From: an uncultured bacterium
Lineage (GTDB): Bacteria > Patescibacteriota > Saccharimonadia > Saccharimonadales > Saccharimonadaceae
Assembly (NCBI GenBank): GCA_937863415.1
Contig: CALMFC010000005.1
Location: 62,001 to 126,000, forward strand
Reading direction: 5' to 3'
Length of the DNA: 64,000 bases
Shown here: positions 11,725 through 61,200 of the stretch, piece after piece
How positions within the stretch are numbered: the stretch's first letter is position 1
Layout: each line of letters opens with the position of its first letter
The notes under the pieces: model-generated
The model's input: only the letters and a program-made list of their open reading frames with translations
Told to the model about the DNA's origin: nothing
The model's database searches: none
Position numbers and translations under genes: made by a program

Positions 11725-11815
11725 TTCTATGCGTGGTTAAGCCTATAAATCGGCACCACGCAAAGTGATAGGGCTTAAACACTTTATTACTGGTTTAGAC
11801 ACCACGCGTGGTGTC
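11698..11815. promoter_or_regulatory. Nested palindromic operator-like region
   Basis: Arms 11698-11718 and 11780-11800 are inverted repeats matching at 19 of 21 bases. Inside lie GTGGTTAAGCC/GGCTTAAACAC (10 of 11). GCGTGGT at 11731 and ACCACGC at 11755 form a further inverted pair, and the same half-site is repeated back to back in an 18-base perfect palindrome at 11798-11815. It sits between two divergent genes. The last palindrome precedes GTTTTATTTATAAGGAG, so it may also shape the leader of the membrane protein gene. Confidence 0.7.
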
Positions 11816-11836
11816 GTTTTATTTATAAGGAGTTAT

Positions 11837-38501: not shown

Positions 38502-39374
38502 TTGAGTCGAGATATAAAGTTGGCAACGCGCGGAAATAATCGAATACGACTATTTAACCGGCATAAGCTAGGCCTAAAAGGCCTGGTTGCGTTAATGGCT
38601 CTGTTTGCGGTAGTAGTTCCAGCTACTGTCTATGCTTTGACGCCAATATCTCAAGGCTATAGTACCAGCGACAAGCTATCGGTTGGCTCAATAGTGAGCT
38701 TAAAGAACAACACAACTGACGAAGTTGTTGGTGCTACTATCGACAATGTCGACAGCATCTTGGGGGTAGTAATAAACGATGGTAGTTCACTGCTGACACT
38801 TTCGAGCGGACAATCCAATCAAGTCCAGGTCGCTACCAGTGGCAACCTACCTGTATTAATATCCGATATCAATGGAGAGATAAAAAAGGGCGATCAGATC
38901 ACCGCTTCACCTATCAAAGGCGTCGGTATGAAAGCCACCAGCAACACCAAGGTGATTGGAATTGCACAAGGCGATCCTATTAATAGTAGCGACAAAGAAT
39001 CCTACACAGACGCCCAAGGCAACAAAGAAGATATCACGCTTGGCCAGATTACAGTTTTAGTAAACGTTTCGTACTACTTTCAACAACCAGATAAAACTCT
39101 GATACCTGCAGCAATTCAAAACCTGGCCAACGCCATGGCGGGCAAAAAAGTGGACACCTTGCCGATCTTGATTAGCGGTGCGATATTTTTGGTAACATTA
39201 ATTGTCGTCGTTAGTATTATCTATTCTATGATTCATAGCAGTATAATTTCAGTAGGGCGCAATCCAATGTCGCAATCTGCCATTTACCGTGATGTGATTC
39301 AATTATCAGCCTTGGTACTTGGGATACTGGCGGTCGCCGGAATAGCAATTTATGTAATATTAACGAGGTTTTAG
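38502..39374 (+). CDS. Ectodomain protein with ATP synthase c-like C-terminal hairpin
   Basis: 290 residues from a TTG start with AAAGGAG 9 bases ahead. TM1 lies near 26-46, a beta-rich exported domain spans about 48-215, and two TM helices form the last 70 residues. The loop between them reads ISVGRNPMSQSAI, like the R-x-P polar loop of F-type c subunits, and by topology it faces the cytoplasm, where gamma and epsilon would touch it. The last helix (LSALVLGILAVAGIAIYVIL) has no Asp or Glu, so it cannot carry protons or sodium. First gene of the F1-like operon. The c-like reading is inference from motif, topology and position. Confidence 0.75.
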   Translation: MSRDIKLATRGNNRIRLFNRHKLGLKGLVALMALFAVVVPATVYALTPISQGYSTSDKLSVGSIVSLKNNTTDEVVGATIDNVDSILGVVINDGSSLLTLSSGQSNQVQVATSGNLPVLISDINGEIKKGDQITASPIKGVGMKATSNTKVIGIAQGDPINSSDKESYTDAQGNKEDITLGQITVLVNVSYYFQQPDKTLIPAAIQNLANAMAGKKVDTLPILISGAIFLVTLIVVVSIIYSMIHSSIISVGRNPMSQSAIYRDVIQLSALVLGILAVAGIAIYVILTRF

Positions 39375-40028
39375 GTGGATATTCATATAGTTTTACAGTG
39401 GGTTCTTTTCATTAGCGTATTTATTATTGGCGCCTTAACTACACTTGCTATCGACCACTTCGTCGAGCATAGGCGCATTAAAAAAGCTGAGCCAAAAAAG
39501 CCTAGTACTGCTGGCCCCGCAACGGTTTCAATTCCACCCGCTATTCGCGAACAATTGCTACAAACTGCTCAAAATAACTTCCAAAAGGTCATGGAAAAAT
39601 CAGCCATCGACTTGCAACGTGACCTGGGCTTTATTTCGGACAAACTCAATCGACAACTCGAAAAATTAGGGTCTGACATCGTCAACAGCGAATCAGAACG
39701 ATATCGAAAAACTATCGAAGCACTTCGAAAACAAGCTGAAACCACGATCAAAGACGCTACGGCTGACGTAAATGATCACCAAACCGACATCAACACCAAG
39801 TTAACCGAGCGACAGACTGAGCTTGAAGAAAACCTACGCAAGAAACTAGCCGACGAGCAAACACTGTTAATAAAACAAATCGACACCAAACTATCAGACG
39901 CTGTTTTGTCATTCCTAACCGAAACCATGCAACATAATGTCGACCTAGGGTCTCAAAGCGATTATTTAGTGGCGATGCTTGAAGAACACAAAGATGAGCT
40001 AAAAAAAGAGGCTGTTGATGAAGTTTGA
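39375..40028 (+). CDS. ATP synthase b-subunit-like stalk protein
   Basis: 217 residues from a GTG directly after the previous stop. One N-terminal TM helix (VLQWVLFISVFIIGALTTLAI), a Pro/Ala linker, then a long charged coiled coil to the end. This is the shape of subunit b, which links the membrane part to delta and alpha. The standard b is about 160 residues and ends in a delta-binding segment. This one is longer. Sequence identity to known b subunits is not evident, so the call rests on shape and gene order. Confidence 0.75.
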   Translation: MDIHIVLQWVLFISVFIIGALTTLAIDHFVEHRRIKKAEPKKPSTAGPATVSIPPAIREQLLQTAQNNFQKVMEKSAIDLQRDLGFISDKLNRQLEKLGSDIVNSESERYRKTIEALRKQAETTIKDATADVNDHQTDINTKLTERQTELEENLRKKLADEQTLLIKQIDTKLSDAVLSFLTETMQHNVDLGSQSDYLVAMLEEHKDELKKEAVDEV

Positions 40029-40515
40029 ACTACCAGCTAGTATCTCGTCAACTCAAGACTTATCCAATCTAATTATTGAGATTGGTGGCTATACACGCTG
40101 GTTTGCAAAAGACACGATTCGCAGGCGCGTTAGCACCAAAAAGCGTAAAAAACACTCCAACGACGAACCGGTTTTATCGAGTGCAGCATCAGAAGTCATA
40201 CGTAATTGGTCTAGTAGCAATCCCATGACCAGCCTCAGCCTAAATAAGCTCGTTAAAACGCTTGAAAAATCTAAAGCCAGTGCTTCCGTCATCGCTATTA
40301 CACTAGCTGCCCCACCGACAAACGAAGTAAAAACCAAACTAGTTGCCTGGTGCCGTAAAAATATCGCGCCTGACGTAATGGTTTCGTTTAATTTCAACAC
40401 GACAATTCTAGGTGGCATGGTAGTTAGATCCGGTAGTCGAATTTTTGACTGGTCGTTTAAACGTCAGATTTTAGCTGCCCGAGAATCTTTCCCAGAGGTA
40501 CTTCGCCGTGTTTGA
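40018..40515 (+). CDS. ATP synthase delta-subunit-like protein
   Basis: 165 residues from the ATG at 40018, overlapping the b-like gene. The end matches the delta/OSCP C-terminal pattern: VMVSFNFNTTILGGMVVRSG followed by SRIFDWSFKRQI (GG-x-x-V-R-x-G ... D-x-S). The N-terminal helical bundle is weakly recognisable and carries a basic insert (STKKRKKHS). Delta ties the stalk to the top of F1. It overlaps the alpha gene by 8 bases. Confidence 0.85.
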   Translation: MKFELPASISSTQDLSNLIIEIGGYTRWFAKDTIRRRVSTKKRKKHSNDEPVLSSAASEVIRNWSSSNPMTSLSLNKLVKTLEKSKASASVIAITLAAPPTNEVKTKLVAWCRKNIAPDVMVSFNFNTTILGGMVVRSGSRIFDWSFKRQILAARESFPEVLRRV

Positions 40516-42094
40516 TAATCCAACCTTTCAACGACTGGTTGAGGCTGACCATCTAACAGGCGAAGTCGTGTCGGTTAATAGCTTTTTGATTGAAGTTAGG
40601 GGTCTAGAAGGTGTCCGACTAGGGGCACAGGTTCTGTTCGAAGATGGACAACGTGGATTAGTTCGTGAGGCGTACGGCGACAAGGTAATTTTATTCAACA
40701 TCGACTCCGAAAGTATGACCCCGGGAACTCTGGCTGTAGTAGAGAACGATGTTCTCAGCATTCCAGTTGGCAAAAAGTTAATCGGTCGTGTAATTAACCC
40801 GATGGGTAAACCGCTTGATGGTAAGGGTGCGCTTAAAACTACCGAAACGTCAGGCATATTCAACCAAGCTCCGGGCATTATGGACCGCAGTATGTTAAAT
40901 GAACAACTCGCTAGTGGTGTTACAGCCGTCGATATGTTCTTCCCAGTTGTACTTGGTCAGCGTATTGCTGTCCTAGGTGATAGTAAATCTGGTAAAAGTA
41001 CCTTTCTAAGCCAACTGAGCGCCAGCCAAAACGGGTCAGACAGAATCGTTGTTTATGTGTTGATTGGTAAAAGAAAGGTTGATATTGAGCAATTACTAGA
41101 AGGCCTACGTGATTCTGGTGCTATGAGTCACACCATTGTCGTTCTAGCTGACATCTTCGATTCACTGACCCAAAGCTACATGGCGCCCTATGCAGCTTGT
41201 GCCGTGGCCGAGAACCTGTGGTACAGCGGCAAAGACGTAATTATTATTTATGACGACCTAAGTAGTCACGCCGAAGCATATAGGCAGCTGTCACTACTAC
41301 AAGAAGTTGATCCAGGTCGCGATTCATACCCAGGTGATATGTTCTACGCCCACTCTAGCCTACTAGAGCGTGCTGGCAAGCTACTAAGTAGCGGTAAGAC
41401 GCTGACTGCCCTACCCGTCATCCTAACGCCTAACGATGATATTACAGCCTATTTATCAACAAGTATTATGTCAATTACTGATGGTCAGATTATCTTGGAT
41501 CTAAACGTTTTTAGGCAAGGCATTCGTCCAGCCGTTAATGCCGGCCTATCGGTTTCGCGTGTTGGCGGTCAAGCTCAAACTGTTCGTCAAAAGCGTTTGT
41601 CTGGAACATTATTTAAACTGTTAGCTAAATATAAACAAGCCGAAGAGTTCTCGCATTTCGGATCGAGCCTGTCTAAGGACGCCCAAATTGATTTGTCCCT
41701 AGGTAAACAAGTTTACGATGCCCTCCAGCAGCCACCTGAAGAGCTACTATCGTTAACTGAACAACAAATCATCCTCGAAACAATCATTTTGGGGGGCGGA
41801 AAAGTAGAGATTGACGTCAGGGGACTCAAAGAATCAGCACGCAAAGAGGCATCTCATGTCAAAAAAGAAACAGACCTAGACAGTATTGAGGCACAGTTAT
41901 TAAAACGTCACACGATTAAATCAAAAGAAACGCCAGAACCAGCCAAAGATACTGATGAATCTAACGAGTCAGAAGAGCCTGAAGATAAATCAGACAATGA
42001 AGCGCCGTCAGAGGACGAGTCGCAAGACAGCCCAAAGCCAGAATCTGACGTTAGCGAAGAAAAAGACAAGGAAAAATCTGATGAGACGCGCTAG
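40508..42094 (+). CDS. F1-ATPase alpha-like subunit with acidic tail
   Basis: 528 residues. P-loop GDSKSGKS at 157-164, Walker B VIIIYDDLSSHAEAYRQ near 245-260, PGRDSYPGDMFYAHSSLLER, and SVSRVGG with the arginine finger Arg351. It lacks the usual 25-residue N-terminal helix that binds delta. The last 65 or so residues are a low-complexity tail of Asp, Glu, Ser and Lys, not found in standard alpha subunits. Nucleotide binding and the arginine finger appear intact, so it can complete the catalytic site on beta. Confidence 0.92.
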   Translation: MFDNPTFQRLVEADHLTGEVVSVNSFLIEVRGLEGVRLGAQVLFEDGQRGLVREAYGDKVILFNIDSESMTPGTLAVVENDVLSIPVGKKLIGRVINPMGKPLDGKGALKTTETSGIFNQAPGIMDRSMLNEQLASGVTAVDMFFPVVLGQRIAVLGDSKSGKSTFLSQLSASQNGSDRIVVYVLIGKRKVDIEQLLEGLRDSGAMSHTIVVLADIFDSLTQSYMAPYAACAVAENLWYSGKDVIIIYDDLSSHAEAYRQLSLLQEVDPGRDSYPGDMFYAHSSLLERAGKLLSSGKTLTALPVILTPNDDITAYLSTSIMSITDGQIILDLNVFRQGIRPAVNAGLSVSRVGGQAQTVRQKRLSGTLFKLLAKYKQAEEFSHFGSSLSKDAQIDLSLGKQVYDALQQPPEELLSLTEQQIILETIILGGGKVEIDVRGLKESARKEASHVKKETDLDSIEAQLLKRHTIKSKETPEPAKDTDESNESEEPEDKSDNEAPSEDESQDSPKPESDVSEEKDKEKSDETR

Positions 42095-42947
42095 TGCTAT
42101 TGAAAAAGAAAGTGTCCAGATTGGAACGATTGAAGATTTGACCGGTGTTTTTGAAAGTATCGCCAGCACTCAGGTTGCCAAAGTTCGCAACAAAGTAGAA
42201 CTTTCCAAAGAATTCTTCGAACTACTTTGGCGTCGGTACCGTTCGATTCGGGTCGACCCCAAAACCAGAATCACTAATCGCAGTGACGACAAAAAGCAAA
42301 AACAAGCTTTTATAATTATTTCAGCCGAAGCAGGGCTTAGTGGTGATATCGACAAACGCCTGATCGAATCAATGCTCAAAAATTATGACAAAGCAACCAT
42401 CGACATCATAGTTCTAGGTACTCACGGCGCTACCCAATTAACTCAACTGGGTATTAGTTTTGTCCGCTATTTCCAGGTACCCGAAACCGACAGCTATATT
42501 GACGTTAGCCCGGTAATCGAAGCACTTGAACCTTATTCGAAAGTAATCGTTTACTACGGTGAATACGTTTCACTTGGTGTCCAAGACGTAAAAAGCATCG
42601 ATTTAGTCTCGAGCATGCGCGATATGAGCCACGAAGACGAGATTGACGAAGACACTATGACTGCCGAGGATACAATTTTTGAACCATCGCTAGACGAAAT
42701 CGCTGAACAAATGGAAAAAACGATGATGACTCTAGCTCTTAGCCAAACCATACTCGAATCCAGTCTAGCCCAAGCTGCCAGTCGTTTTAACTCGATGGCC
42801 GTCGCCAAGAAACGAGCTGGTGAACTGTTAGCAGATTATCGCCTAGAGTTTCACCGCGCCAAACGTAGCGAAAGCGACCGACAGTTACGCGAAGTTATGA
42901 TTAGTATCAAAAAGAAAAAGGCACGCGCCAGAGGATTAGCCCGATGA
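42081..42947 (+). CDS. F1-ATPase gamma-like subunit (rotor shaft)
   Basis: 288 residues from the ATG at 42081, overlapping the alpha gene by 14 bases. The N- and C-terminal helices that make the shaft are recognisable (ASAIEKESVQIGTIEDLTGV at the start, SRFNSMAVAKKRAGELLADY near the end), as is ISAEAGLSGDIDK in place of the usual ITSDRGLCGxxN. An acidic insert (MSHEDEIDEDTMTAEDTIFE) lies before the last helix. The sequence is clearly diverged from standard gamma but keeps the shape of a shaft. Confidence 0.87.
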   Translation: MRRASAIEKESVQIGTIEDLTGVFESIASTQVAKVRNKVELSKEFFELLWRRYRSIRVDPKTRITNRSDDKKQKQAFIIISAEAGLSGDIDKRLIESMLKNYDKATIDIIVLGTHGATQLTQLGISFVRYFQVPETDSYIDVSPVIEALEPYSKVIVYYGEYVSLGVQDVKSIDLVSSMRDMSHEDEIDEDTMTAEDTIFEPSLDEIAEQMEKTMMTLALSQTILESSLAQAASRFNSMAVAKKRAGELLADYRLEFHRAKRSESDRQLREVMISIKKKKARARGLAR

Positions 42948-44401
42948 AAAAAGTTACTAAACGATCTGTTAGAAAAGCTGCCAAGAAATCTGCTAAAAAG
43001 ACCAGTTCAACCGCAGCTAAATTCGCTAACGAACACGTTGGAGTTATATCTTCGCTTCGTGGACTAATGGTAGAAGTCGAAATACTAGACGCTAAACCAT
43101 CCGAAAAAGAACTACTAATTGTCGAAGGTCACCCAGACGTTTTCCTAGAGGTCAGTTTTTTCCGCGATGGCGTCGTTGTCTGCGTCAATTTAACTAATGA
43201 CCAAAACCTACGTTGTGGTATGAAAATCTCGCGTAGCCACACTAAAGTAACAGTGCCCGTAGGAACCGACACTCTAGGCCGAGTGTTTAATGCCCTGGGT
43301 GAACCACTAGATAAAGGTCCTAATGTCACTAATAATCGCCGAGTAATCAGCGAGGCGTCTGGCACCAAAACGTATCGCGGCACTCAAAAACTTGAAATGC
43401 TCGAAACTGGGCTAAAAGTTATCGACTTTTTGACGCCATTTGTTAAAGGTCGCAAGATTGGCATTGTCGGCGGTGCTGGTGTTGGTAAGACAGTGCTTAC
43501 GATGGAAATGATTAACAACGTCACCCGTAATGCCAAAAGTCTTTCGATTTATTGCGGTGTTGGTGAACGTATTCGTGAGGGTAATGAGCTATATGAGACA
43601 CTCAAAGAAACTGGCGTGCTAAAAAACACAGTTATGTACTTTGGTCAGATGGACTCGACACCAGCTATTCGTTCCATGGTGGGACCGGCCGCTGCAACTG
43701 CTGCTGAATATTTCCGCGACGAAGAGGGTCGCGACATCTTATTCTTTGTTGATAATATTTATCGTCACATTCAAGCCCTAACCGAACTATCAACTAACCT
43801 TGGCTTAATCCCATCCGAAGGTGGCTACTCGCCTACTATCTTTGCTGAACTTCGCCGCCTAGAAGACCGCCTAAGCTCAACTGACAAAGGTACGATTACA
43901 TCAGTCCAAGCCGTTTACATTCCAGCGGACGACTTGTCCGACCCTGCCGTACAAGCTATTTCGCAACAGCTGGATTCAGTCCTTGTTCTATCACGTTCTG
44001 TGGCCGAAAACGGCATTCGTCCGGCAGTAGATTTGCTCAAAACAACCTCGTCACTTCTAACTCCTCAAATTGTTGGTGAGCGTCACTACAAACTGGCTGG
44101 TCAAGTTCAAGCTATCATGCAAAAGTATGATTCACTCAAAAATATTATTGCTATCGTCGGTGAAAACGAACTTTCACCAGCAGATCGTAAAGATTACCAA
44201 AATGCCCAAAAGTTAGTTCAGTTTTTCTCGCAGGACTTTACCGTAGCTGAACACTTATCGGGCAAGCCCGGCCAATACTTCACCCTAGCTCAAACTTTAG
44301 ACGGTATCGAAGATATCTTAAATGGCAGAACTCCCAAAGAACACAAAGAGGAAAAGCCAAAAACTAGTGATAAACCCGCTAAACCAACTAAAAAATCATG
44401 A
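42944..44401 (+). CDS. F1-ATPase beta-like catalytic subunit with basic tails
   Basis: 485 residues. P-loop GGAGVGKT at 176-183, catalytic Glu208 in GVGERIREGNEL, Walker B ILFFVDNIYRHIQ, TSVQAVYIPADDLSDPA and the DELSEED-loop equivalent NELSPAD. All ATP-hydrolysing residues are in place. Unlike standard beta it has a Lys/Arg-rich N-terminal extension of about 25 residues and a Lys/Pro-rich C-terminal tail of about 20. These could bind the acidic alpha tails or the membrane. ATGA overlap with gamma and epsilon. Confidence 0.93.
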   Translation: MKKVTKRSVRKAAKKSAKKTSSTAAKFANEHVGVISSLRGLMVEVEILDAKPSEKELLIVEGHPDVFLEVSFFRDGVVVCVNLTNDQNLRCGMKISRSHTKVTVPVGTDTLGRVFNALGEPLDKGPNVTNNRRVISEASGTKTYRGTQKLEMLETGLKVIDFLTPFVKGRKIGIVGGAGVGKTVLTMEMINNVTRNAKSLSIYCGVGERIREGNELYETLKETGVLKNTVMYFGQMDSTPAIRSMVGPAAATAAEYFRDEEGRDILFFVDNIYRHIQALTELSTNLGLIPSEGGYSPTIFAELRRLEDRLSSTDKGTITSVQAVYIPADDLSDPAVQAISQQLDSVLVLSRSVAENGIRPAVDLLKTTSSLLTPQIVGERHYKLAGQVQAIMQKYDSLKNIIAIVGENELSPADRKDYQNAQKLVQFFSQDFTVAEHLSGKPGQYFTLAQTLDGIEDILNGRTPKEHKEEKPKTSDKPAKPTKKS

Positions 44402-44661
44402 AACATGACGACAACCTCAAAACACTAAATGTCATCGCTAGGGCACCATTTAACGTTTATTACCAAGGTGATGCCCAAGCGGTAACTGCCACCAACAAAG
44501 TTGGTGAATTTGATATATTGCCAGGGCACGCCGACTTTTTTTCTATCCTAGACCCCGGTGAAGTCGTTATCACCACTAAATCTGAACCAATCGTTTTTGA
44601 TATCAATAACGGCATCCTAACCGCCCGCGATAATGAAGTGATGCTATTTGTTAACATGTAA
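44398..44661 (+). CDS. F1-ATPase epsilon-like subunit, beta-sandwich only
   Basis: 87 residues with the epsilon N-terminal sandwich pattern VGEFDILPGHADFFSILDPG, then VFDINNGILTARDNEVML. The C-terminal helical hairpin, which inhibits ATP hydrolysis in many bacteria, is absent. The enzyme would therefore be free of epsilon inhibition. The start overlaps the beta stop by 4 bases. No a-subunit gene follows. Confidence 0.9.
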   Translation: MKHDDNLKTLNVIARAPFNVYYQGDAQAVTATNKVGEFDILPGHADFFSILDPGEVVITTKSEPIVFDINNGILTARDNEVMLFVNM

Positions 44662-44832: not shown

Positions 44833-45870
44833 CTATTGCATAACTATATAATCAAACAAGATGCCACCAGCAGATAGAGGACTCGAGACATAAATACTAA
44901 ACCCAGTTGCGGTGCGGTTAACGAAAAAGTTCGCACTCCGTCCAACTGGCGAAACCACTACGTGCGGCGTACTGCTGAATTGATTATGGAAATAAACCTG
45001 AGCAATTAGTCCTGTGCCAGCTCCGACACCAATATTAGCTGCAACCGTACCAGATGCGTCATTACCACTAATCGAAACTGTTCCATTTGACCCTAGTGCT
45101 GATCCACCTGCGCTAATTCCAGGTGCAGTCCCCCGAGTAATAATATGTCCGCCAATCGTTAGCGTTGTATCAGATACTAAACTACTAGCCTGAAAATTAC
45201 GTACCGACAAAGTTCCACCCACTGACAAACTACCCGCAATATTAACGTTATTATTAACGGTCAACAATTGATTAACCGTTACTGTACCTTGCAATCTAGT
45301 TGTACCATCTACTGTTAGGTCTTTGCGTAGCGACAAATTAGTGGCCGACGCATCACCATTCACATTTAACTTGTCGACCGACGTATCACCAGCCTGCAAA
45401 TTAGCTAGACTAGCACCGGTCGCAGAGAATTTACTGTTTAGCTTTAGTTCTCCAGCGATACTAACATCACCACCAACTGTCAGCTTGCCGTCAAAACGTG
45501 AATTTGGACCAACAACTAATTCTGTCCCAGCATCACCGATCGCATTACGACTAACACCTAGTTTATCTAGAACAACTGGGCTTATCACAACCTCGGACTT
45601 TGACTGGGCATTTGCATCATCTTGGCTACTAGATAAGAATGCAATTACGGCCGCATTAATTCCCAAAATCACAACAACCACAGCTATTCCGATGAATGTA
45701 GCCTTGTGACTTGGTCGATAGGTTTTATGTTTTAGAAGAACGCGTTTTTTGGGTTTAGCTTCATCTACCTTTTTGTTGTCGGTTTTTGACTGCGACGCAG
45801 ATTCATCCTGAGTCTTTAAGAGTTCAGGTGCTGGCAAATCTGAAGTGTTTTTGTTATCGTCTGATTTCAT
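44833..45870 (-). CDS. Membrane-anchored beta-solenoid-like surface protein
   Basis: About 345 residues from MKSDDNKNTS. A charged cytoplasmic part of about 50 residues, one TM helix (FIGIAVVVVILGINAAVIAFL), then an external part made of short repeats such as GKLTVGGDVSIAGELKLN and TVNNNVNIAGSLSVGGTLSV, the spacing of bactofilin- or solenoid-type stacks. The end (STPHVVVSPVGRSANFFVNR onward) is a small beta domain. It faces the surface-protein genes to the right. Confidence 0.8.
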   Translation of the reverse strand: MKSDDNKNTSDLPAPELLKTQDESASQSKTDNKKVDEAKPKKRVLLKHKTYRPSHKATFIGIAVVVVILGINAAVIAFLSSSQDDANAQSKSEVVISPVVLDKLGVSRNAIGDAGTELVVGPNSRFDGKLTVGGDVSIAGELKLNSKFSATGASLANLQAGDTSVDKLNVNGDASATNLSLRKDLTVDGTTRLQGTVTVNQLLTVNNNVNIAGSLSVGGTLSVRNFQASSLVSDTTLTIGGHIITRGTAPGISAGGSALGSNGTVSISGNDASGTVAANIGVGAGTGLIAQVYFHNQFSSTPHVVVSPVGRSANFFVNRTATGFSIYVSSPLSAGGILFDYIVMQ

Positions 45871-46065
45871 GTTTGTATGTTGTCTGTTACTAGGCGATAT
45901 TATAACGCTAAAGGCTATTACTTGCAACAAAACTCTTCACTTGCACAAAGTGAGCGGCAGCGGGTGGTGTTCGGTGGGGCAAACCGGACGACAGGACCCG
46001 CAATAGAATACACGCCCCCAAGGGTCCTTATTGCAAAATTATCGGCAATCCTTGACAATAAGGTT

Positions 46066-46797
46066 ATGTTAAAGAGGTTGGTCGGATATTTTGGTGCACT
46101 TGTCGTGTTAGCTGTTAGCGTAGCGCTGAGTTCTAGTTACGTCTCAGCCGAAGAACCACAATCACCTAACTACAAATTCAGCGAAAGCACACTGGGTGCT
46201 GGTGGCCTGATACAATCAAGCTCGGCTAATTTTCAGGGTCGCGAAACCGTTGGCGACGTGGCTGTCGGCAACGCTAATTCATCAAACTACCAGATTAATG
46301 CTGGTGGTACAACCACTCACGATCCTTCACTATCTTTCTCTGTAGGAAGTGGAAGTATTAACTTTGGTAATTTTAGTGCAACCAACCCGACTGTCACCAC
46401 CTCTACCTTTACAGTTTTAAACTACACTAGCCATGGTTACGTTGTGCAAATGTTCGGAACTCCTCCAACTAATGGATCGACTACTATCGACCCAATGACG
46501 ACAGCTGGACCATCGACAGTTGGCGTTTCGCAATTCGGCATCAACCTAGTGGCTAACACCTCTCCTGTTTCAGTCGGTTCTAACTTAAACAATGGTCAGT
46601 TTGGATTCGGTCAGGTTGCGCCTAATTACTCTACGCCCAATCAATATCGCTATGTCAGTGGCGACACAATTGCGTTGGCTCCAAAAAGCTCTGGACTGAC
46701 TACATACACTATTACCTACTTGGTTAATGTACCTGCATTAACACCTGGTGGAAAATATACAAGCGACCAGACATTAATAGTTACTGGAACGTATTAA
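46066..46797 (+). CDS. Exported WxL-like surface protein (short)
   Basis: 243 residues from the ATG at 46066. Signal peptide YFGALVVLAVSVALSSSYVSA with cleavage expected after VSA. The C-terminal 150 residues (VSQFGINLVAN ... NQYRYVSGDTIALAPKSSGL ... YTITYLVNV) share order and phrases with the two larger proteins downstream (SQFGLNLKAN, DNFKFVPGD, SYIANV), so the three have one domain in common. This domain resembles the WxL surface domain in plan. No LPXTG sorting signal. Confidence 0.75.
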   Translation: MLKRLVGYFGALVVLAVSVALSSSYVSAEEPQSPNYKFSESTLGAGGLIQSSSANFQGRETVGDVAVGNANSSNYQINAGGTTTHDPSLSFSVGSGSINFGNFSATNPTVTTSTFTVLNYTSHGYVVQMFGTPPTNGSTTIDPMTTAGPSTVGVSQFGINLVANTSPVSVGSNLNNGQFGFGQVAPNYSTPNQYRYVSGDTIALAPKSSGLTTYTITYLVNVPALTPGGKYTSDQTLIVTGTY

Positions 46798-46896: not shown

Positions 46897-48042
46897 ATGA
46901 TTAAACACCACCACTCATTTATTAGGTTATTAACTCTCGTCACACTAGTTGTGGCTCTTTCGGTTGGACCATTCTTGCCGATGACAGCTCATGCAGCTCA
47001 GATCACAAACCGAAAACTAACATTAATAGCCGGTGATACCAACGGTAATACAGTCAACGCCGGTGCAATGGCAAGTGGTGTTGTTAAGCATAAGTTTGAT
47101 TTTACGGTACCGTCCGGAACAAGTGTCGGATCAATTCAGTTCCTATACTGCACACAAGCAGCTGATACTTGTGTTACGCCAACTGGACTCAGTACAACAT
47201 CTGCTACTCTGGACGCTCAATCTGGAGCAACAGGATTCACTATGGTTAATACAACCAATGGTGCACCTTATATTGCAAGAGTAAGTGCTAGTGTCATCCC
47301 AGCTGCGACCCCGCTTAGCTATACGCTAAATTCGGTTACTAACCCAAGCGACAACAACACATCCTTTTATGTACGTATCACTACGTTTGCAACTACTGAT
47401 GCTACAGGCGCACCTACCGATCAAGGTACAGTTGCCGCTAGTACCTCTGAACAGATCTACCTATCTGGCATCATGCCCGAGTCACTTGTCTTTTGTACCG
47501 GTGCAACTATCGATCGCACACCTGCCGTAACCGGCGTGCCTGATTGTGCCACGGCTACTGCTGGTGTTATTAGTTACAACCAAGCGTTCTCACCAACCGA
47601 CACCGCAACTGCCTCGTCACAAATGTTCGCCTCGACCAATGCTGGATCAGGTTTTGCAATAACGGTTAATGGACCAACTCTGACGTCTGGTGCCAACACC
47701 ATTACGGGGATGTCTACAATGGGACCTATTATACATGGTGTTAGCCAGTTTGGACTAAACCTAAAGGCAAACACCGTAGCAACATCAACCGTACCCGTAG
47801 GGGCAGAGATTGACAAGCCCTCAAATGGCGCTAATTTCCGTGCTGCACCTGCAACAGGTTATGACACAGTTGATAACTTCAAATTTGTGCCAGGTGACGT
47901 TGTGGCTAATAGCGATAACGGTGGCGCCGGTGGTACAGACTCTCAGATTATCACGGTATCCTACATCGCTAACGTACCTGGTAGCTTGCCAGCTGGTACC
48001 TACTCAACTACCCTTACCTACATCTGTACTCCAACATTCTAG
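46897..48042 (+). CDS. Exported WxL-like surface protein A
   Basis: 381 residues. Signal peptide (LLTLVTLVVALSVGPFLPMTAHA), then AQITNRKLTLIAGDTNGNTV, a beta-rich body with paired cysteines (YCTQAADTCV; VFCTGA...PDCATA), and the shared C-terminal domain ending YSTTLTYICTPTF. It is a paralogue of the next gene over its whole length. Function is probably surface-layer or adhesion. The cysteines may be joined by a DsbA-like enzyme such as that at 33083 (inference). The leader is A-rich with no clear Shine-Dalgarno. Confidence 0.8.
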   Translation: MIKHHHSFIRLLTLVTLVVALSVGPFLPMTAHAAQITNRKLTLIAGDTNGNTVNAGAMASGVVKHKFDFTVPSGTSVGSIQFLYCTQAADTCVTPTGLSTTSATLDAQSGATGFTMVNTTNGAPYIARVSASVIPAATPLSYTLNSVTNPSDNNTSFYVRITTFATTDATGAPTDQGTVAASTSEQIYLSGIMPESLVFCTGATIDRTPAVTGVPDCATATAGVISYNQAFSPTDTATASSQMFASTNAGSGFAITVNGPTLTSGANTITGMSTMGPIIHGVSQFGLNLKANTVATSTVPVGAEIDKPSNGANFRAAPATGYDTVDNFKFVPGDVVANSDNGGAGGTDSQIITVSYIANVPGSLPAGTYSTTLTYICTPTF

Positions 48043-48100: not shown

Positions 48101-49216
48101 ATGAGTGTGAGACTGAACGGGAAGTTATTGCTGGTATCTGTGATTTTGTTAGTAGCAACTTTCACGACAGTCTTCAGGTCTAATGACGTAAACGCTGCTC
48201 AAATTACAGTCCGCAAATTGACCCTCCAGGCTGGTACGACCGACGGCGGATCAAAACCTGGAGGTGTCGTTAAGCATCAATTTGAATTTACGATACCTTC
48301 TGCTACAGCAGTAGGTTCAATTCAATTTGAATACTGTACAACAGCTAGCGGCGGAACTTGTGTCGTGCCATCTGGTTTAGATACCACGGCGGCAACTCTA
48401 ACCAACCAATCAGGTTCAATCGGTTTTACCATGGTAAATACTACTAATGGCGCTCCCTATATAACTCGTGGATCAGCTGTATCAGCTGCGGGAACAGACC
48501 TGTATCAGTTAAGTAACATAACCAACCCGACAACCACTAACTATACATTCTTCGTACGCATATCAACCTATACAAGCACTAACGCTACTGGTAGTCCAGT
48601 CGATACAGGCACAGTGGCAGCTAGCACGTCAACTCAAATCGTCCTAACCGGTATCATGCCTGAATCACTAATATTCTGCACCGGAGCAACGATCACTAAA
48701 ACTGCGGGAATTCCTGACTGTACAACCGCAACAGCAGGTGCAATCAGCTTTAATCAACTATTCTCGCCTACCGACACTGCCACCGCTACCTCACAAATGG
48801 CTGCATCGACCAATGCCGCATCTGGATATAGCATTACAGTTAATGGCCCAACTCTTACTTCTGGATCCAATACCATCCCCGCGATGACATCATCTGGTGT
48901 TGGCGTTAGAGGAACTGGACAATTTGGCATGAATCTTAAACTTAACACTGTCGCAACCTCTACTGTAGCTGTCGGTGCAGAAGTAGACTCTGCACCTGAT
49001 GGCGTAAACCTTAAGGGTCAAGCCGCTGCAGGATATGACACAGTCGATAACTTTAAGTTCGTTAGTGGTGACAGCGTTGCTAACAGCGCTAACGGTGGTG
49101 CTGGTCCAACCAACGCCCAGATCTTTACATCGTCCTATATTGTCAACGTAGCTGGTAATCAGGCGTCTGGTACATACGTTTCAACCTTGACTTACATATG
49201 CACACCAACCTTTTAA
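48101..49216 (+). CDS. Exported WxL-like surface protein B
   Basis: 371 residues, tandem duplicate of the preceding gene: same signal-peptide layout, AQITVRKLTLQAGTTDGG, same cysteine pairs, and same end YVSTLTYICTPTF. The two differ mainly by short insertions. The copy has its own promoter, so both may be expressed or switched separately. The 3' end overlaps the start of the DUF916-like gene by 19 bases. Confidence 0.8.
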   Translation: MSVRLNGKLLLVSVILLVATFTTVFRSNDVNAAQITVRKLTLQAGTTDGGSKPGGVVKHQFEFTIPSATAVGSIQFEYCTTASGGTCVVPSGLDTTAATLTNQSGSIGFTMVNTTNGAPYITRGSAVSAAGTDLYQLSNITNPTTTNYTFFVRISTYTSTNATGSPVDTGTVAASTSTQIVLTGIMPESLIFCTGATITKTAGIPDCTTATAGAISFNQLFSPTDTATATSQMAASTNAASGYSITVNGPTLTSGSNTIPAMTSSGVGVRGTGQFGMNLKLNTVATSTVAVGAEVDSAPDGVNLKGQAAAGYDTVDNFKFVSGDSVANSANGGAGPTNAQIFTSSYIVNVAGNQASGTYVSTLTYICTPTF

Positions 49217-50205
49217 ACACCAAATTATACGTTCGATCGATTATTGCCGCTAGCTTGCTGGTTTTGTTATTTGGCACACTCGCTTCACCGCTAGTTAACG
49301 CCCAATCCACTGACAGTACTGCTGGTCAGGCTCTCGAGATTGGCCCAACTGTATTTAATGTCTCAGCCAACCCAGGCGACTCTGTTAAAGTTAATGTCAA
49401 TATTCGCGACGTATCACCGACTAATTTGATTGTACGCGGTCAAATTAATGACTTCGTCGCCAACGGCGAAGAAGGTATACCCAAAATTATTCTAGATGAT
49501 AGTGTCGATAATCCATATTCACTAAAAACTTGGGTGTCAACGCCTGGTCAGCTAACGCTCAAGCCAAAAGAACTAAAGACCCTCCCTGTAACGATTAATG
49601 TCCCGTCAAATGCCTCTCCGGGTGGATATTATGGTGTTATCCGCTTTACATCTAACCCACCAGAACTTGAAGGCACCGGTGTGGCGTTATCAGCCAGTGT
49701 TGGTGCGTTAATAATCCTGACAGTTAATGGGACCGCTAAGCAACAGTTGTCGGTGGTAGAGTTCTCGACCAGCAAAAACGGCAAAACTGGTAACTTTTTC
49801 GAAACTACCCCAATCCAGTTCACAGAGCGCATCAAAAATAGCGGTAATATCCACGAAGAACCAACCGGACTGGTGACAGTAACCGACATGTTCGGCAACA
49901 AAGTCGTTAACCTAGCTATTAATCAACCACCTGGAAAGATTTTGCCTGATAGTATTCGTAAATTCACGCAGCCGCTAGACAGTTCATCCATCGGTAATCG
50001 AATTCTGTTTGGCCTGTATCATGCTGATCTGACTGTTAATTACGGTGACGGACAAACCGCCAAATCAAGCTTGTCGTTCTGGGTGATTCCGTACACTTTG
50101 ATTATCATATCAATTCTAGGATTAGTAGCTGCCTTTTTCTTGCTAAGGTACCTCATCAGGCGCTATAACCGTGCAATCATCGCTCGTGCCAAACGACATA
50201 AATAG
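49198..50205 (+). CDS. DUF916-like WxL-interacting surface protein
   Basis: 335 residues. Signal peptide (IIAASLLVLLFGTLASPLVNA), then EIGPTVFNVSANPGDSVKVN and VTINVPSNASPGGYYGVIRF, matching the two immunoglobulin-like domains of DUF916/WxLIP proteins. A C-terminal TM anchor (LIIISILGLVAAFFLLRYLI) and a basic tail follow. In Gram-positive bacteria such proteins bind WxL proteins and peptidoglycan. Its place right after two WxL-like genes supports the same partnership here. Confidence 0.85.
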   Translation: MHTNLLNTKLYVRSIIAASLLVLLFGTLASPLVNAQSTDSTAGQALEIGPTVFNVSANPGDSVKVNVNIRDVSPTNLIVRGQINDFVANGEEGIPKIILDDSVDNPYSLKTWVSTPGQLTLKPKELKTLPVTINVPSNASPGGYYGVIRFTSNPPELEGTGVALSASVGALIILTVNGTAKQQLSVVEFSTSKNGKTGNFFETTPIQFTERIKNSGNIHEEPTGLVTVTDMFGNKVVNLAINQPPGKILPDSIRKFTQPLDSSSIGNRILFGLYHADLTVNYGDGQTAKSSLSFWVIPYTLIIISILGLVAAFFLLRYLIRRYNRAIIARAKRHK

Positions 50206-50229
50206 CATAAGCATGGTATAATATTGTCC

Positions 50230-51186
50230 ATGCAGAAAAGCATGAAACTAAAACACAAAGAACATAGCGGACGACTTCGTCCACACGAATTCACATCATA
50301 CATTTCACTTATTGTTCTGCTAGTTATAGTTGGACTTTCTTTGGTTATTTATACAGTTACAGCAGCAAGTCCAGGTCCACAAGCAGGGTCAGTTGGACTA
50401 ACTGGCGTTATCGAAGGCAAACCGCCCACTCTGGCCGCTCACATAGATACGCCAACCAACAACCAACACTTTGGCACTTCGCCAGTTACGATTAGTGGTA
50501 CTTGTCCGCCCAATACCTTGGTCGAGCTTTTCAAAAACGACATCTTTGCAGGCTCTGTGCCCTGTAGTGTAATTGGTCAATTCGAACTAGACATCGATCT
50601 ATTAATTGGATCAAACACACTAGTTGCCAAGGTTTATGATGAACTAAACCAAGCAGGACCGGATTCGAACATAGTTACTGCCCACTACGATGCCTTGCCA
50701 CCTCAGGCAGGAGCACTAACTTCACTTAGTTTTGGTAGTGCACAACTGCTACTAAACACCGATGCCGTATTTAGAGGTGTTTTTCCAGAACAAGAACTAG
50801 TTATTCCCATTAATATCATCGGCGGATCGCCACCATATGCTGTCAATGTAGACTGGGGTGACTCGAACAACAAGGTGGTACCTAGAAATGATAATATTCC
50901 GTTCAAAACCGGACACAAATACCAAAAAGCTGGAACATATCAAATCTCGATTCAAGCAACTGATGCAGTTGGACGAGTAGCCTTTCTAAGCGTAGCCTCA
51001 ATTGTCAACGGCCAACCAAGCGTTGAGTCTGTCGGCACAATGTCAGCATCAACCACCAATCACCTGTTAGTCCTATGGCCGCTTTATACGGCTGTAATTG
51101 GGGTAGTGCTGGCATTTTGGTTAGGCGACAGGCGCGCAAAGCACATGATGAAAAAACGTGGCATGGTAATCGCTCCAAAAGACTAA
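50230..51186 (+). CDS. PKD-like surface protein with two membrane anchors
   Basis: About 318 residues from the ATG at 50230 (TGG-TATAAT ends 7 bases before it). N-terminal TM (YISLIVLLVIVGLSLVIYTV), an Ig-like domain (PVTISGTCPPNTLVELFKND), then a PKD-like domain with NVDWGDSNNK and HKYQKAGTYQISIQATD, and a C-terminal TM helix with a basic tail. PKD domains support protein-protein or sugar contacts outside the cell. It probably belongs to the WxL-type assembly. Confidence 0.83.
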   Translation: MQKSMKLKHKEHSGRLRPHEFTSYISLIVLLVIVGLSLVIYTVTAASPGPQAGSVGLTGVIEGKPPTLAAHIDTPTNNQHFGTSPVTISGTCPPNTLVELFKNDIFAGSVPCSVIGQFELDIDLLIGSNTLVAKVYDELNQAGPDSNIVTAHYDALPPQAGALTSLSFGSAQLLLNTDAVFRGVFPEQELVIPINIIGGSPPYAVNVDWGDSNNKVVPRNDNIPFKTGHKYQKAGTYQISIQATDAVGRVAFLSVASIVNGQPSVESVGTMSASTTNHLLVLWPLYTAVIGVVLAFWLGDRRAKHMMKKRGMVIAPKD

Positions 51187-55212: not shown

Positions 55213-58200
55213 ATGTTAAATATCAAAAAAACCATCACAAGATTGGCAAAGCAATTTAGGCACTTTTTTCTAAACCTCAAACAACAAGCGCGTCATTTTT
55301 GGAAACAGCCAAACGCACGCAAATTTAGCTACCTAAGCTTTATAATAATTTTTCTACTTATTATTGCGAATGTAGTCCTTTCATTTATATATGGTCAGAC
55401 CCCATATAAACTCGGTAAAGCTGAAGCTCTACTAAGCCCAGTTAGTCACGTAATGGCAAATAAAATTAGCTATGACGCCCTAAGCCAAAGCTTTAATTTT
55501 AATGCGCAAGGCACCTCAGACGGTAGTGATTTGATAAACGCTAGCACTACAGTAAAATCTACTGCTTATAAAAATGCTTCAAAGGGCGTAACTGTCGTAG
55601 ACCCTGTAAATAATATAGATTTTACTTTGACACCAAAATATAAACTCGGCGAAGGTAAACAATCTAATGACAGGATTATATATCCGATATCTGATAATTC
55701 TGGATGGACGGTTTATACCATGCAAGCCACTGGTGTCAAAGAGGACATATTACTCAATAAAAAGACCAGCGATAAAAAAACTTTTGAGTATAGCCTAAAC
55801 CTATCTGACGGACTTGAAGCTAGAATGGAAACAGACGGTGGAATCGGTATTTACGGAAATCCAACTCTTTCTAGTGACATAACGACTGCAACTAGCGCCG
55901 ATGCTTTGTTACTACAAAAAGCAAGATTGAATTCAACCAAAACGACGTTGCTATTCTCTATCCCTAAACCTATTATCGTTGAGTCTGGTGGCAAAAAGTC
56001 GAAGGTCCAAGTCGCCTATTCGCTAAATGGAAATTCATTAAATATTACTGCCTCAAATCTTAATCAAGGCAGCTATCCCCTTTCTATCGATCCAAGCATT
56101 TATGTTTCGACTGCCCAGCAATTTATGGCTGGTAACAATGAAACTAACATTAACTTTAACGTTGATAATAAATTAATTGAAAAGGCCCACACGACTGGAG
56201 CGCGTTTTAATTCTTGGAATCCAACCAAAGATTTAAACAACACAATGTGGAGACAAGGTGTCGCTGTAGCTGGTGGCTATATCTATACGGTTGGTGGCAC
56301 TCACCCAGAGGGAGGTATCGCTAGCTACACTACGCCAGGTACAGATACATTTGTTGTACCGGCCGGTGTCAACTCTATTAGCGTTAAGGCTTGGGGTGGC
56401 GGTGGTGGTGGAGGTGGAGGCGGAAACGGTACTAATAGCACCGGCGGTAACGGTGGTGGGGGTGGTTTCGTTCAAACTACACTCACTGTTACACCTGGTG
56501 AAACATTAAACATTGCGGTCGGCGGTGGCGGTGGATTTGGTGGTGGCTCAACTAGGTCTGGAGAAGGCGGAGGTGGTGGCGGATATTCGCGAGTTTCACG
56601 AAGCTCCACTTCCCTATTAGTCGCAGCTGGAGGTGCAGGTGGAGGTGGAGGTGGTAACAGTTCTTATGCTGGTGGTGACGGTGGAGCTGGCGGTGGTACG
56701 ACAGGCATAGGTGGGTCTGATGGTTCTAATGCGCCTGCTGGAGATCCTGGAACACCATCTGGTGGAGGTGCGGGTGGCAATAGCAGCCGTAATGATGGCG
56801 CAAACGGTGGTTCTTTATCCGGTGGCGATGGAGCTGATGGACGTAGTAGCTCGGGCTCTGATGGCAGCAACAGTAATGGCGGTTCAAATGGAGGTGGTAA
56901 CGGTGGCTCACGAGACATAAATAACTCCTACGCTGGCGCAGGTGGAGGTGGTGGTGGGTACTATGGTGGAGGTGGTGGTAGCTCAAGTGGCTCCAGTAAC
57001 CGTTCAGCCGGCGGTGGAGGTGGTGGCTCTAGCTATACCACTGGTACAGGGGCTATCAACACAGCTGGAAGTGGCACCACTCCCGGTAATTCAACCGACT
57101 CAGATATAGGCGCTAGCGCTGTTGGTGGTAATGGCGGAGCTCGTAGGGGTGACGGAACATCAGGCTCATCGGGTAGCGTGGTAATCTCGTACACAACAGA
57201 CGTTTCATCGGTTGACACAGTGAGTTGGGCTAGATTTAATACTACTTCTGGTGAGATTGAAAATACTAACCCAGGCAATGGTACATGTAGTGGTTGGTGT
57301 ACTTCGACTGCATATAAATTACCAGCTCCAAGAAGCAATCTATCGTTGGTTGCATATAATGGCTTTTTATATGCGATTGGTGGCGAAGATCCTAGCTGCA
57401 CAACAGCAAATGGTACTGGTGATGGTGGACTATGTAAGACTGTTTATGTAGCCAAGATTGGCGCAAACGGAGAACCTAGACTTTGGCACCCTACTGACAC
57501 TAACCAAAACAACTGGACGTATTGGTACCGTGCCGGTGACCTAACAAATCCACGTAGTATATCAGCTGCTGTGGCTAGTAATAACCATATGTATCTGTTG
57601 GGTGGTAAAACAAGTAGTGGTGGCGTCGTATCGGTAACAAATACAGTGCAGATTGCAGATATTATTCCTACAGGCGCACTAAGTAGTTGGACCACATCCT
57701 CTGCTAACTTACCGACAAGTAGTTACGGGCATGGAGCAGAAATATACAACAGCCGACTATATTTAATTGGTGGATCTTCAGCAGTTGGTAGCGCTCCAAC
57801 TAACAGTGTTTACTACGTCAAAATTAACAATGATGGTACTTTAAATAACTGGTTACAGACGTCTAGTTTTGCAAATGGAAGATTAGGTAATGGCGGTAAC
57901 TTTACAACTGTCTGGGGGGGTTACTTATACATCAGTGGAGGTTGTACGGCAGTTAATGGGAGTGGTTATTGCACATCAATTAGTAATGACACTCAACTTG
58001 CAAGTATAAATGCTGATGGTAGTTTAGATATATGGAACACAAACGCAAGTGTTTCTGACCAAAGGACGGGACATAACCTGGTTTCGTGGCGTAATTATAT
58101 TTACATAGTGGGTGGTTGTAGTAGTCAAAGCTCCACCACAGGAGTCTGCCTATCACCCCTTCAAACAATCAACTATGGATCAATCAACCAAGACGGTGAC

Positions 58201-61200
58201 GCTTCAACTGTTGATCAATCCGTGGCATCGGGTACTGCACCGTGTAATGGCGGTAGTCCTCATAGCTGTGACCTACCAGGCACAACTTATATTGGTAATA
58301 TGCTTACTGCGTCATTCATTTCTGGTGGTTATTTGTATGTGATTGGGGGTTGTACGAATAATTCTTGTTCAAGTACCCTCGGCAATGTATCATATGTAGC
58401 AATATCTTCAACTGGATCGATGACCAAGCCAGCTACTTGCCCCACTGGAACCTACAGAGGAAACATATGGTGTGTTGACACTACAAATACAATATCTGGT
58501 GGAATTGCTGCCGCTAGCCCTGTTGTGTTCGGCAATGTAATTTACTTGGTGGGTGGTCTCAACGGCAGCAGTAATATAAACGCAATCAACCGTGCGACCA
58601 TAAATAGCGATGGTAGTCTATCGGCTTGGACATCACAGTCAATGACGGGCCTCGGCGTCAACTCAGTTTCATACCTGTTCGCTTACTCTCGCGCAAATCC
58701 AGCATCAGCTAGCACTGCACCCGGAAATCTCTACATTTTTGGTGGCTGTACGTCGGCTAGCAATGCGGGCTGTAGTGGTTATAGCCAAAATGTTTATAAA
58801 TGCGACATCCTAGTAAACCAATCTATATCTTCATGCTCCACCAGTGGACAACTACAGATCGGCAAAGTCAGCGGAGATAATTCTACCGGTCTAGCTATTA
58901 TGAGCGGAACTGTCTACGCAAATTACATCTATCTAATTGGTGGTGTGTCGCCAAATATCACCGATCTCGATACTGTAAGATACGCCAAGTTTGACAACAG
59001 TAATAATGTCGTTTCTACCGACGGAGGAAGTTCCTGGATAGAGTCACCAAATAAAATGGAAGTTGGTCGTCGTCGTGCAGCCGCATTTGGCTACAACGGT
59101 TATATATATGCAATGGGTGGATATGATGGTGGGTCTGGAAGCGTATTGGCTGATATTGAGTTCATCAAAGTTAACGTTAGTGACGGAAGTTTAGGTAGTG
59201 CAAGTGAAGGTTTTAACGTCTCAGCCGTTACGATTAATCAACGTTGGGGATTAAGTGTGCCAATATCTAACTCGTTTGCCTACATTATTGGCGGATGTAC
59301 AGTTGGTGCTAGCCCAAGTGGTTGTACAACCAGAACAGATGTCATCCAAACATTCCAAATTTACAATAACGACAGCGGGGCTCCTGCTGGTTACAACACT
59401 TCGTCGCATACATATAGCACAAGCCCGAACCGAATCGGTGCTAGTAGTACTATCTTGAATGGATATATTTATACTGCAGGTGGATGCACTAGCGCAACTG
59501 ATTGCACGACGGCAACCAATAACGTTTCATACGCACCGATTGACGCAAATGGTGATATCGGCACTTGGTCCAATACAAGCTCTAATTTACCGGCTGCTCG
59601 AGCCTGGGGTAAGTTAGAAGCGGCAGGAGGAACACTGTACTATATCGGTGGTCAAGACAGTTCTGGTGATAGTCAAAAAACCATATATTATGCTACTCCG
59701 TCCTCTGGAAATGTTACGTCTTGGCAAACCGCCAGTAACGGCTTACCCAAAGAAAAAACACAATTTGGCTCCACTGTTTGGAATGACAGGTTATATGTAG
59801 TTGGTGGCTTAAATAGTTCCAGTGGATCAGTTATTTACGATACAGCTGGCACTCAAACCTATACAGTTCCCGCCGGCGTTACTTCTATTACAGTCAAAGC
59901 CTGGGGAGCTGGCGGTGGTGGCGGTGGTGGTGGATCGAGTGGTGGCGGTGGCAACGGTGGTGGCGGTGGTTACTCAAAAGCAACACTAACTGTCACACCA
60001 GGCGAATCTTTAACCGTCATAGTGGGTAGCGGAGGTGGCGCAGGTGATCTTAGTAGTGGAGGGAGCGGAACACTATCTGGAGACGGTGGCGGTGGCGGTG
60101 GTTATTCGATTGTAAAAAGAGGCGGAACATCACTCATTATCGCTCCGGGTGGAGCTGGAGGTGGTGGCGGAGATAATTCATCTGCTACGACTGGTGGTAA
60201 TGGTGGAGCTGGTGGTGGATCGAGTGGCGAAAACGGAGCAAGTTCGCTCAGTGCTGGGGGTGGTACTGCGGGAACAGGTTCTACCGGTGGAACTGGTGGA
60301 ACTGGTGGCAATAACGATGGTGCGAATGGCGGTTCCCTATCCGGAGGTGACGGCGGTGATGGGCGCAGTAATCAAGGTAGTGATGGAAGCAAACTAAATG
60401 CTGGAACACCTACTGGCGGTAATGGTGGTAATGGTGATGAAAATGCCAACGGCTATGGCGCCGGTGGAGGTGGTGGATCTGGCTATTTTGGTGGTGGCGG
60501 TGGCGCTGGTGCACTTGCCGGTAATGCTGGAGGAGGTGGAGGTGGAGGTGGATCTGGCTACACAACAGGTACCGCAACACTGATGACAGCGGGCAGTGGA
60601 CAAACGCCTGGTAATTCAACAGACATTAAACGTGGCAATGGTGGAGATGGAGGTGGCGGTGGCGCAATAAATGGTAGCGGAACTGCAGGCAATCCAGGTG
60701 TAGTATCAATCGCAGTCGCTGGAAGCAGCGACCCAAACTGCGCGAATGGTGTTTGTAACGAAATATATATTAGCCCAAGCCTATCAAGTGGTGGAGACAT
60801 TACCTCCGCTTGGACAACTTCGGGATCAAACCTAAGCATTGCCCGTAGTGGTGCGACGGCCGTTGCTTATGCTAATAACTTATATGTCCTGGGCGGATAT
60901 GATGGCCTAAATTACCTAAGTGACGTGCAATATTCAAAACTTAGCACCAGCGACGGATCTACTGGCAGCTGGACCTATACGACTAGCCTGCCAGGAGCAT
61001 TATCACAATCCGACGGTTTTGCAGCTAACGGTTACATATATCTCATTGGCGGTAGATCTAATGATTCAACCTGCTCGCCTATTACTTTGGTTGCACCGAT
61101 TAGTGCAAATACAACTATCGTATCGGGCAACAATCCAACCGGAATTGGCGAATGGTTTGCAACTAATCAACGCTACAGCGGAGATCGCTACGGCGCATCG

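Follow-up and report, generated by a model that had tools for sequence, protein, structure and literature searches.

A c-subunit-like hairpin without the ion-binding acid, fused to an exported domain, opens a second F1-like operon in Saccharimonadaceae

What does an F1-like ATPase drive when the only candidate for its c subunit lacks the acid that binds the ion and carries an exported domain instead? This question is raised by a gene, here called X, in the window, by which we mean the whole stretch of 64,000 nucleotides that was analysed, from an uncultured bacterium of the Saccharimonadaceae (genome of 0.85 Mb in 14 contigs, essentially complete). The original prediction, made from the letters alone, was that X joins an exported domain to a hairpin resembling those of F-type c subunits, and that a ring of such proteins could transmit the rotation of an F1 shaft to the cell surface. 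To our knowledge, all established F-, V- and A-type rotary ATPases couple to ions. Patescibacteria, in turn, account for a large share of bacterial diversity and have few characterised surface systems.

The X protein and the operon that it opens

X encodes 290 amino acids, with a TTG start about 9 nt downstream of AAAGGAG, and is the first gene of a tightly packed operon, X-b-delta-alpha-gamma-beta-short epsilon (38502-44661), with the following features.

38502..39374, + strand: X, a signal peptide, an exported beta domain and a c-like hairpin without the ion-binding acid
38649..39077, + strand: exported beta domain of X, residues 50-192, with a capsid cement/decoration-like fold (AlphaFold2, Foldseek)
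39156..39368, + strand: c-like transmembrane hairpin of X, residues 219-289 (AlphaFold2, Foldseek, VIA-align, profile tests)
39255..39266, + strand: GRNP polar loop, residues 252-255, invariant in the family and present also in the canonical c subunit of the same genome
39318..39320, + strand: Leu273 at Pro+18, the site of the ion-binding Asp/Glu (sequence comparison)
39375..40028, + strand: b-like peripheral stalk protein, one N-terminal transmembrane helix (hydropathy), then coiled coil
40015..40515, + strand: delta/OSCP subunit (PF00213, E 9e-8, over the cut-off)
40508..42094, + strand: alpha subunit (PF00006, E 1e-64), P-loop GDSKSGKS and arginine finger kept
42081..42947, + strand: gamma subunit (PF00231, E 6e-27; TIGR01146, E 2.5e-20)
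42944..44401, + strand: beta subunit (PF00006, E 2e-64), with GGAGVGKT, GER and the Walker B Asp intact
44398..44661, + strand: short epsilon of 87 aa, beta-sandwich domain only (PF02823, E 1.5e-13)

In the AlphaFold2 model of X (32-row alignment, mean pLDDT 83.7) a signal helix (residues 13-38) precedes the beta domain, which is followed by a short helix (203-213) and by two C-terminal helices of 35 residues each (219-253 and 255-289) that meet at GRNP; by hydropathy, the signal segment and these two helices are the only hydrophobic segments. Both the hairpin with its cytoplasmic loop and its fusion to an exported domain had thus been read correctly. X is a real gene, as judged from its homologues in 32 of 60 related genomes and at 69 loci of the GTDB contig collection (84,980 species scanned), all but one of them of Saccharibacteria type (68 loci). 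All 32 rows of the family alignment share GRNP, and the acid is missing without exception, which excludes chance. Searches of X against PHROGs and NCBIfam returned no match.

The predicted fold of the exported domain is like that of phage capsid cement and decoration proteins, with Foldseek matches to 8pkh (E 9e-6), phi29 gp12 (3gqh, 3e-4) and Sf11 (9ocb, 3e-3), and a match below the cut-off to Pfam PF23982 (XM1 gp53, E 1e-4). A prophage origin was considered and rejected: because an F1 operon adjoins X in dozens of genomes, these matches are not evidence of a prophage and only describe the fold of the exported domain.

Regarding the motor parts, the b-like protein matches PF00430 weakly (E 0.32), and its place between X and delta is conserved; the gamma gene has a probable start at 42081, which makes it overlap alpha at its end. 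All 42 beta sequences keep the P-loop lysine, the Walker B Asp and the catalytic Glu of GER, and all 41 alpha sequences keep the arginine finger. Because these catalytic residues are intact, the F1-like complex is expected to hydrolyse ATP. The operon contains no subunit a and, by hydropathy, no polytopic protein anywhere in 38502-44661, and X is the only c candidate in this second F1 set. A canonical F1Fo operon, a-c-b-delta-alpha-gamma-beta-epsilon, lies on another contig of the same genome and holds its single copies of subunit a and canonical c. The short epsilon gene, the missing subunit a and this canonical operon go beyond what had been predicted.

In a tree of beta subunits, E. coli and two canonical patescibacterial sequences group together (100/100), and the F1-like sequences split into several lineages. 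With three canonical rows the tree cannot tell one origin from several, and it is compatible with either. The F1-like sets of loci L138, L150, L151 and L094 have beta subunits that branch off closer to canonical F1 than those of the other sets, and are perhaps of separate origin.

Kinship with c subunits and the missing ion site

Of the 38 Foldseek matches in the PDB for an AlphaFold2 model of the X hairpin alone (pLDDT 86.6), 33 are ATP synthase c subunits, with E above 1 throughout (best 1.1). VIA-align superposed the model on c subunits with Z up to 9.9, a value that unrelated helical hairpins can also reach. For the X subfamily of the window alone, hhalign against the canonical c subunits of the order gave 76-79% and E about 2e-5 over 26 columns round the loop, a score that was reached by 12 of 100 shuffles in which GRNP was kept and the helices were scrambled. 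The Pfam search of the window's X gave no match to PF00137. These results suggest that the direct similarity of this subfamily to c rests mostly on the shared GRNP loop, and, given that its score was not distinguished from those of the GRNP-keeping shuffles, we do not base the homology of X to c on its own subfamily.

Wider sets of sequences were compared with c in the same way, with the following results. First, all 104 fused hairpins matched c at 94% (E 1e-7). Second, the hairpins of distant X-like proteins, which the full-length X profile finds at 76-104 bits, matched canonical c at 96% (E 4e-9). Third, the hairpins of giant and other larger proteins matched canonical c at 98% (E 6e-14). 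For each of these sets, none of 100 loop-preserving shuffles scored as high. Distant fused members also pass or approach the Pfam c model, namely, a fusion of 679 aa with an Ig-like domain at locus L150 reaches 30.1 bits with ATP-synt_C (PF00137), over a cut-off of 24, and matches the NCBIfam model of F0F1 subunit C with E 2.4e-11. In profile searches of the PDB, the hairpin returned two weak matches, the second of them an ATP synthase c subunit (E 0.17), and the full X profile returned no ATP synthase c match. Homology of the fused hairpins to c is well supported by profile comparison at the level of the family, and the link of X itself to c appears to run through its distant relatives. The similarity to c profiles proposed for X therefore stands for the fused hairpins as a set, and for the L150 protein, and is no more than suggestive for the subfamily of the window taken alone.

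As in F-type c subunits (PF00137), the hairpin of X consists of two transmembrane helices and a polar cytoplasmic RNP loop, in line with the R-N/Q-P pattern of c, with equal helix lengths and spacing. The fused hairpins differ from c subunits, however, in their fusion to exported domains, in a glycine-poor helix 1 (on average 1.7 glycines, against 5.4 in canonical c), owing to which their packing may differ from that of a known c-ring, and at two positions after the loop. At Pro+18 the X hairpin (VGRNPMSQSAIYRDVIQLSALVLGILAV) has Leu, whereas the canonical c subunit of the same genome (LGRNPEKLSEIRTLMITAIVFADSLAI) has Asp. Among the 104 fused hairpins this residue is L in 62 and I, V, F, G, M or A in the others, and no D or E occurs from Pro+14 to Pro+29, in contrast with 29 of 29 canonical c subunits that have D or E at Pro+17 to +19. 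Directly after the loop Pro, the Glu of all 29 canonical c subunits is replaced by L, M, Y or F in all 104 fused sequences. An acid in helix 1 was found in a single one of the 104. The original prediction that the ion-binding acid is missing is thereby confirmed, and no other position of helix 2 in this range makes up for it.

A second PF00119 subunit a was found in none of the 51 genomes that carry the F1-like system, and in nine of these (G003, G008, G059, G101, G160, G183, G275, G292 and G334) PF00119 is wholly missing; G160 is a single-contig genome. With neither an acid in helix 2 nor a second subunit a, the X system lacks any ion path of a known type, and its loss of ion translocation is well supported by these comparisons of genes and residues. 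It may be noted separately that the nine fusion-bearing genomes without PF00119 carry alpha and beta genes, yet, since subunit a is missing, probably have no ATP synthase at all.

Distribution, exchangeable outside domains and surface genes

X keeps close company with F1 genes. Of the 69 GTDB loci, 50 extend downstream for more than 7.5 kb; alpha lies near X in 48 of these 50, each of delta, gamma, beta and epsilon in 47, and b in 46. In the 60 related genomes, a second F1 set is present in 35 of 35 with X or another fused hairpin and in 0 of 25 without (Fisher 2e-17, a p-value that overstates independence because the genomes are related); these counts were taken from printed result lists, and many of the genomes are metagenome bins. 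Together with the place of X at the head of a complete second F1-like operon, this co-occurrence upholds the predicted tie to an F1 motor. The X genes of G036, G042 and G053 are located away from the F1 operon.

Beyond the order, the profile of fused hairpins was scanned against 381 sampled Patescibacteria genomes, counting as fused forms open frames of over 150 aa. Fused forms occur in at least 70 of the 381, usually beside F1-like genes. Besides X-like proteins of 250-310 aa, the scan returned giant proteins and ordinary c subunits, one of which, at L152, was verified within an a-c-b operon. The fused exported domains range from 170 to more than 2400 residues. Within the genus of the window, G006 and G007 have no X, and a 2573-aa exported NHL/Ig protein ends in an acid-free c-like hairpin; downstream of it lies a second F1 set (alpha, gamma, beta, epsilon and b- and OSCP-like genes), and a further giant protein and the genes of an ABC-MacB/FtsX pair belong to the same neighbourhood. 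The distant G066 (L138) has a similar arrangement. In these cases the hairpin stays constant and what lies outside can be exchanged, as expected of a rotor with a surface payload.

Several single loci are worth recording. Exported NHL-propeller/Ig proteins of up to 2573 aa with a c-like hairpin end occur at L088 (2389-10107), L089 (2120-9838), L087 and L138, adjoining a second F1 set and an ABC/MacB-FtsX pair. At L140, two different X-like hairpin proteins, at 2488-3273 (+) and 11329-12096 (-), flank one F1-like operon. At L040, L042, L044, L045, L050, L101, L133 and L135, X genes, often extra copies, lie away from F1 and adjoin genes for giant surface proteins; such copies are possibly alternative crown subunits.

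Beyond epsilon, the window continues with genes for surface proteins.

44833..45930, - strand: bactofilin-like protein with one transmembrane helix (PF04519, E 2e-4, below the cut-off)
45877..46797, + strand: exported surface protein (g45877), conserved beside the operon
46897-48042 and 48101-49216, + strand: two related exported beta-rich proteins, with cross-matches between them
49198..50205, + strand: WxL-interacting-protein-like (WxLIP-like) protein (PF06030, E 6e-6, just under the cut-off)
50224..51186, + strand: exported protein with weak Ig/PKD matches and a C-terminal transmembrane helix
51306-55205, + strand: large surface protein, carbohydrate-binding-like
55213-61755, + strand: large kelch-repeat surface protein of 2180 aa, end of the conserved surface-gene run

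This order of genes is found across the order Saccharimonadales: the run from X to epsilon is followed by the opposite-strand bactofilin-like gene and several exported beta-rich proteins and, further on, by a WxL-interacting-protein-like wall-binding protein, an Ig-type protein and giants. The bactofilin-like gene is present in 41, and g45877 in 40, of the 50 GTDB neighbourhoods with room for them. The WxLIP-like protein, with a signal peptide, a peptidoglycan-binding domain and a C-terminal transmembrane helix, is a candidate wall anchor, and a relative of it adjoining the fused c of the distant L150 passes the Pfam cut-off. On the other side of X, and divergent from it, a 41-codon open reading frame (VRKATRNQLGYTLLELITVILIVAILVTIIIFFITDFNQAG; 38403-38278, - strand) lies between a GH3 gene and X, and consists of a type IV prepilin signal and a helix without a head domain. 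In 14 of 36 related loci a similar headless micro-pilin is encoded upstream of X, on the minus strand and no more than 1 kb away; none of the other 1-kb bins of these loci, on either strand, has one.

A putative surface motor, its rivals and known systems

We consider it probable, although well short of certain, that X is a repurposed F-type c subunit and the rotor of a second, ion-independent F1 motor, whose most likely work is to turn something at the cell surface rather than to pump protons. From the well-supported homology of the fused hairpins to c, the operon and the loss of ion translocation, we infer ring assembly, rotation, stator anchoring and a surface task as follows. Several X hairpins would pack into a c-like ring, whose GRNP loops would hold the foot of gamma and epsilon; ATP hydrolysis in alpha3beta3 would turn gamma, epsilon and the X ring, and delta and the single-span b would hold alpha3beta3 as the stator. 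Lacking both subunit a and the ion-binding acid, the complex would move no ions, and its work would show up on the outer side of the membrane, where the ring of beta domains would rotate or be put under torque. This crown would hand the torque to the large surface proteins encoded alongside, in the service of adhesion, of traction on a host or of organising the surface layer. The proposed ring and the passing of its rotation to the surface agree with all that was observed. What speaks against such a motor is that a single-span b must still resist torque; without subunit a the stator needs another anchor, for which we conjecture that the peptidoglycan-binding WxLIP-like protein perhaps serves. 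Also to be counted against it are the glycine-poor helix 1 of the fused hairpins, the weak Foldseek E-values of the hairpin model, the X genes that lie apart from F1 or occur as extra copies next to giant genes, and the mainly loop-based similarity to c of the window's own subfamily.

With doubt slightly outweighing belief, it is tempting to speculate further that a phylum-wide class of ATP-driven transmembrane rotors exists, in which F1 turns an ion-free, c-derived ring with a crown of interchangeable surface domains, be they capsid-cement-like beta domains, Ig repeats, NHL propellers or proteins of over 2500 aa. Evolution seems to have dropped the ion site and the channel, kept F1 and the c-derived hairpin, and added surface domains. 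If true, this would be a direct way of sending torque through the membrane to the outer surface of a host-dependent cell, and candidate machinery for the host-attached life of Patescibacteria. It is also a warning that alpha and beta genes in their genomes need not mean ATP synthesis.

Other readings of the same genes were weighed. A c-like ring of X might serve as a membrane anchor that is static or tilts, its crown not rotating in a sustained way. The F1-like ATPase would then do conformational work, opening or resetting surface proteins, as has been suggested for MIB-MIP of Mycoplasma. The surface-protein-rich gene cluster would suit this, as would the Mycoplasma Type 3 model, which is of the same kind and whose authors regard their data as not fully supportive (PMC12994834); nevertheless, gamma, delta, epsilon and b, the needs of rotary coupling, are all kept, and we find this reading unlikely. 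Doubtful to a greater degree is a secretion-type ATPase, like FliI/FliH/FliJ, that aids the export or assembly of surface proteins, with X as its membrane dock. FliI-type ATPases are related to F1 and appear among the lower-scoring NCBIfam families, and surface genes adjoin the operon, but alpha and beta score 398 and 452 bits as atpA and atpD against about 218 and 213 as FliI/SctN, whose export ATPase models they match below cut-off; moreover, alpha, beta and epsilon stay distinct, the hydrophobic segments at the N-termini of the exported proteins are of the Sec kind, and no gene for an export gate lies nearby.

The presence of canonical F1Fo in most fusion-bearing genomes, together with the similarity of the loops, would allow X hairpins to be minor members of the canonical c-ring, anchoring surface proteins to the ordinary ATP synthase. 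However, nine fusion genomes lack subunit a, canonical c is absent in the three of them checked for c, and X sits in the F1-like operon and not in the canonical one, which makes such mixed rings very improbable. We give hardly any credence, finally, to the idea that the complex translocates ions through a channel that has escaped recognition and binds them elsewhere than at a helix-2 acid. In the engineered subunit c of E. coli (A24D/D61N, PDB 1l6t) a site in helix 1 can indeed stand in for this acid, but the 104 fused sequences offer one helix-1 acid and no helix-2 acid, and there is neither a polytopic protein in the operon nor a second subunit a.

With respect to known systems, the X operon resembles that of the F1Fo ATP synthase in uniting alpha, beta, gamma, delta, epsilon and a b-like stalk, with catalytic residues intact, and departs from it in lacking subunit a and the ion site, in an epsilon reduced to its N-terminal domain and in its surface-protein neighbours. 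As with the N-ATPase, or alternate F1Fo, it is a second F-type operon in one genome; nevertheless, it has no subunit a, and identity with the N-ATPase was rejected on the alternate F1F0 models, which lie far below cut-off for alpha, beta and gamma (NCBIfam TIGR03305, 427 against 752; TIGR03324, 343 against 750). Searches of the open-licence literature, preprints excluded, for an F1-like ATPase, c-ring, rotary motor or WxL in Patescibacteria or Saccharibacteria gave no relevant paper.

By analogy, the nearest known counterparts are the F1-like X0 ATPases of Mycoplasma, namely, Type 2 (the G1-ATPase of M. mobile gliding) and Type 3 (MIB-MIP, for which this ATPase is needed; PMC12994834). There, MMOB1650 and MMCAP2_0577 are signal-peptide proteins with two C-terminal transmembrane helices, encoded with F1-like subunits (PMC11864180; PMC12994834), and X, likened to them by described architecture (PMC12994834), is such a secreted protein too. 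A 12-transmembrane protein is present and b is absent in the Mycoplasma systems; the patescibacterial set, by contrast, includes b and delta but lacks a 12-transmembrane protein. Membership by sequence was rejected on these grounds and because alpha and beta score higher as atpA and atpD, the window's beta reaching 452 bits with atpD, 388 with MSC_0618 (cut-off 570) and 351 with MMOB1670 (cut-off 850). The patescibacterial system may nonetheless work like a Mycoplasma F1-like X0 ATPase. In the published model of M. mobile gliding, force transduction within the membrane is labelled unknown (PMC11864180), and homology of the Mycoplasma membrane proteins to c is not recognised in either paper (PMC11864180; PMC12994834). 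If X is indeed a c-derived rotor, the two-helix membrane proteins of the gliding and MIB-MIP motors may work in the same way, and this rotating-crown answer to force transfer is testable because the patescibacterial membrane part can still be recognised as c.
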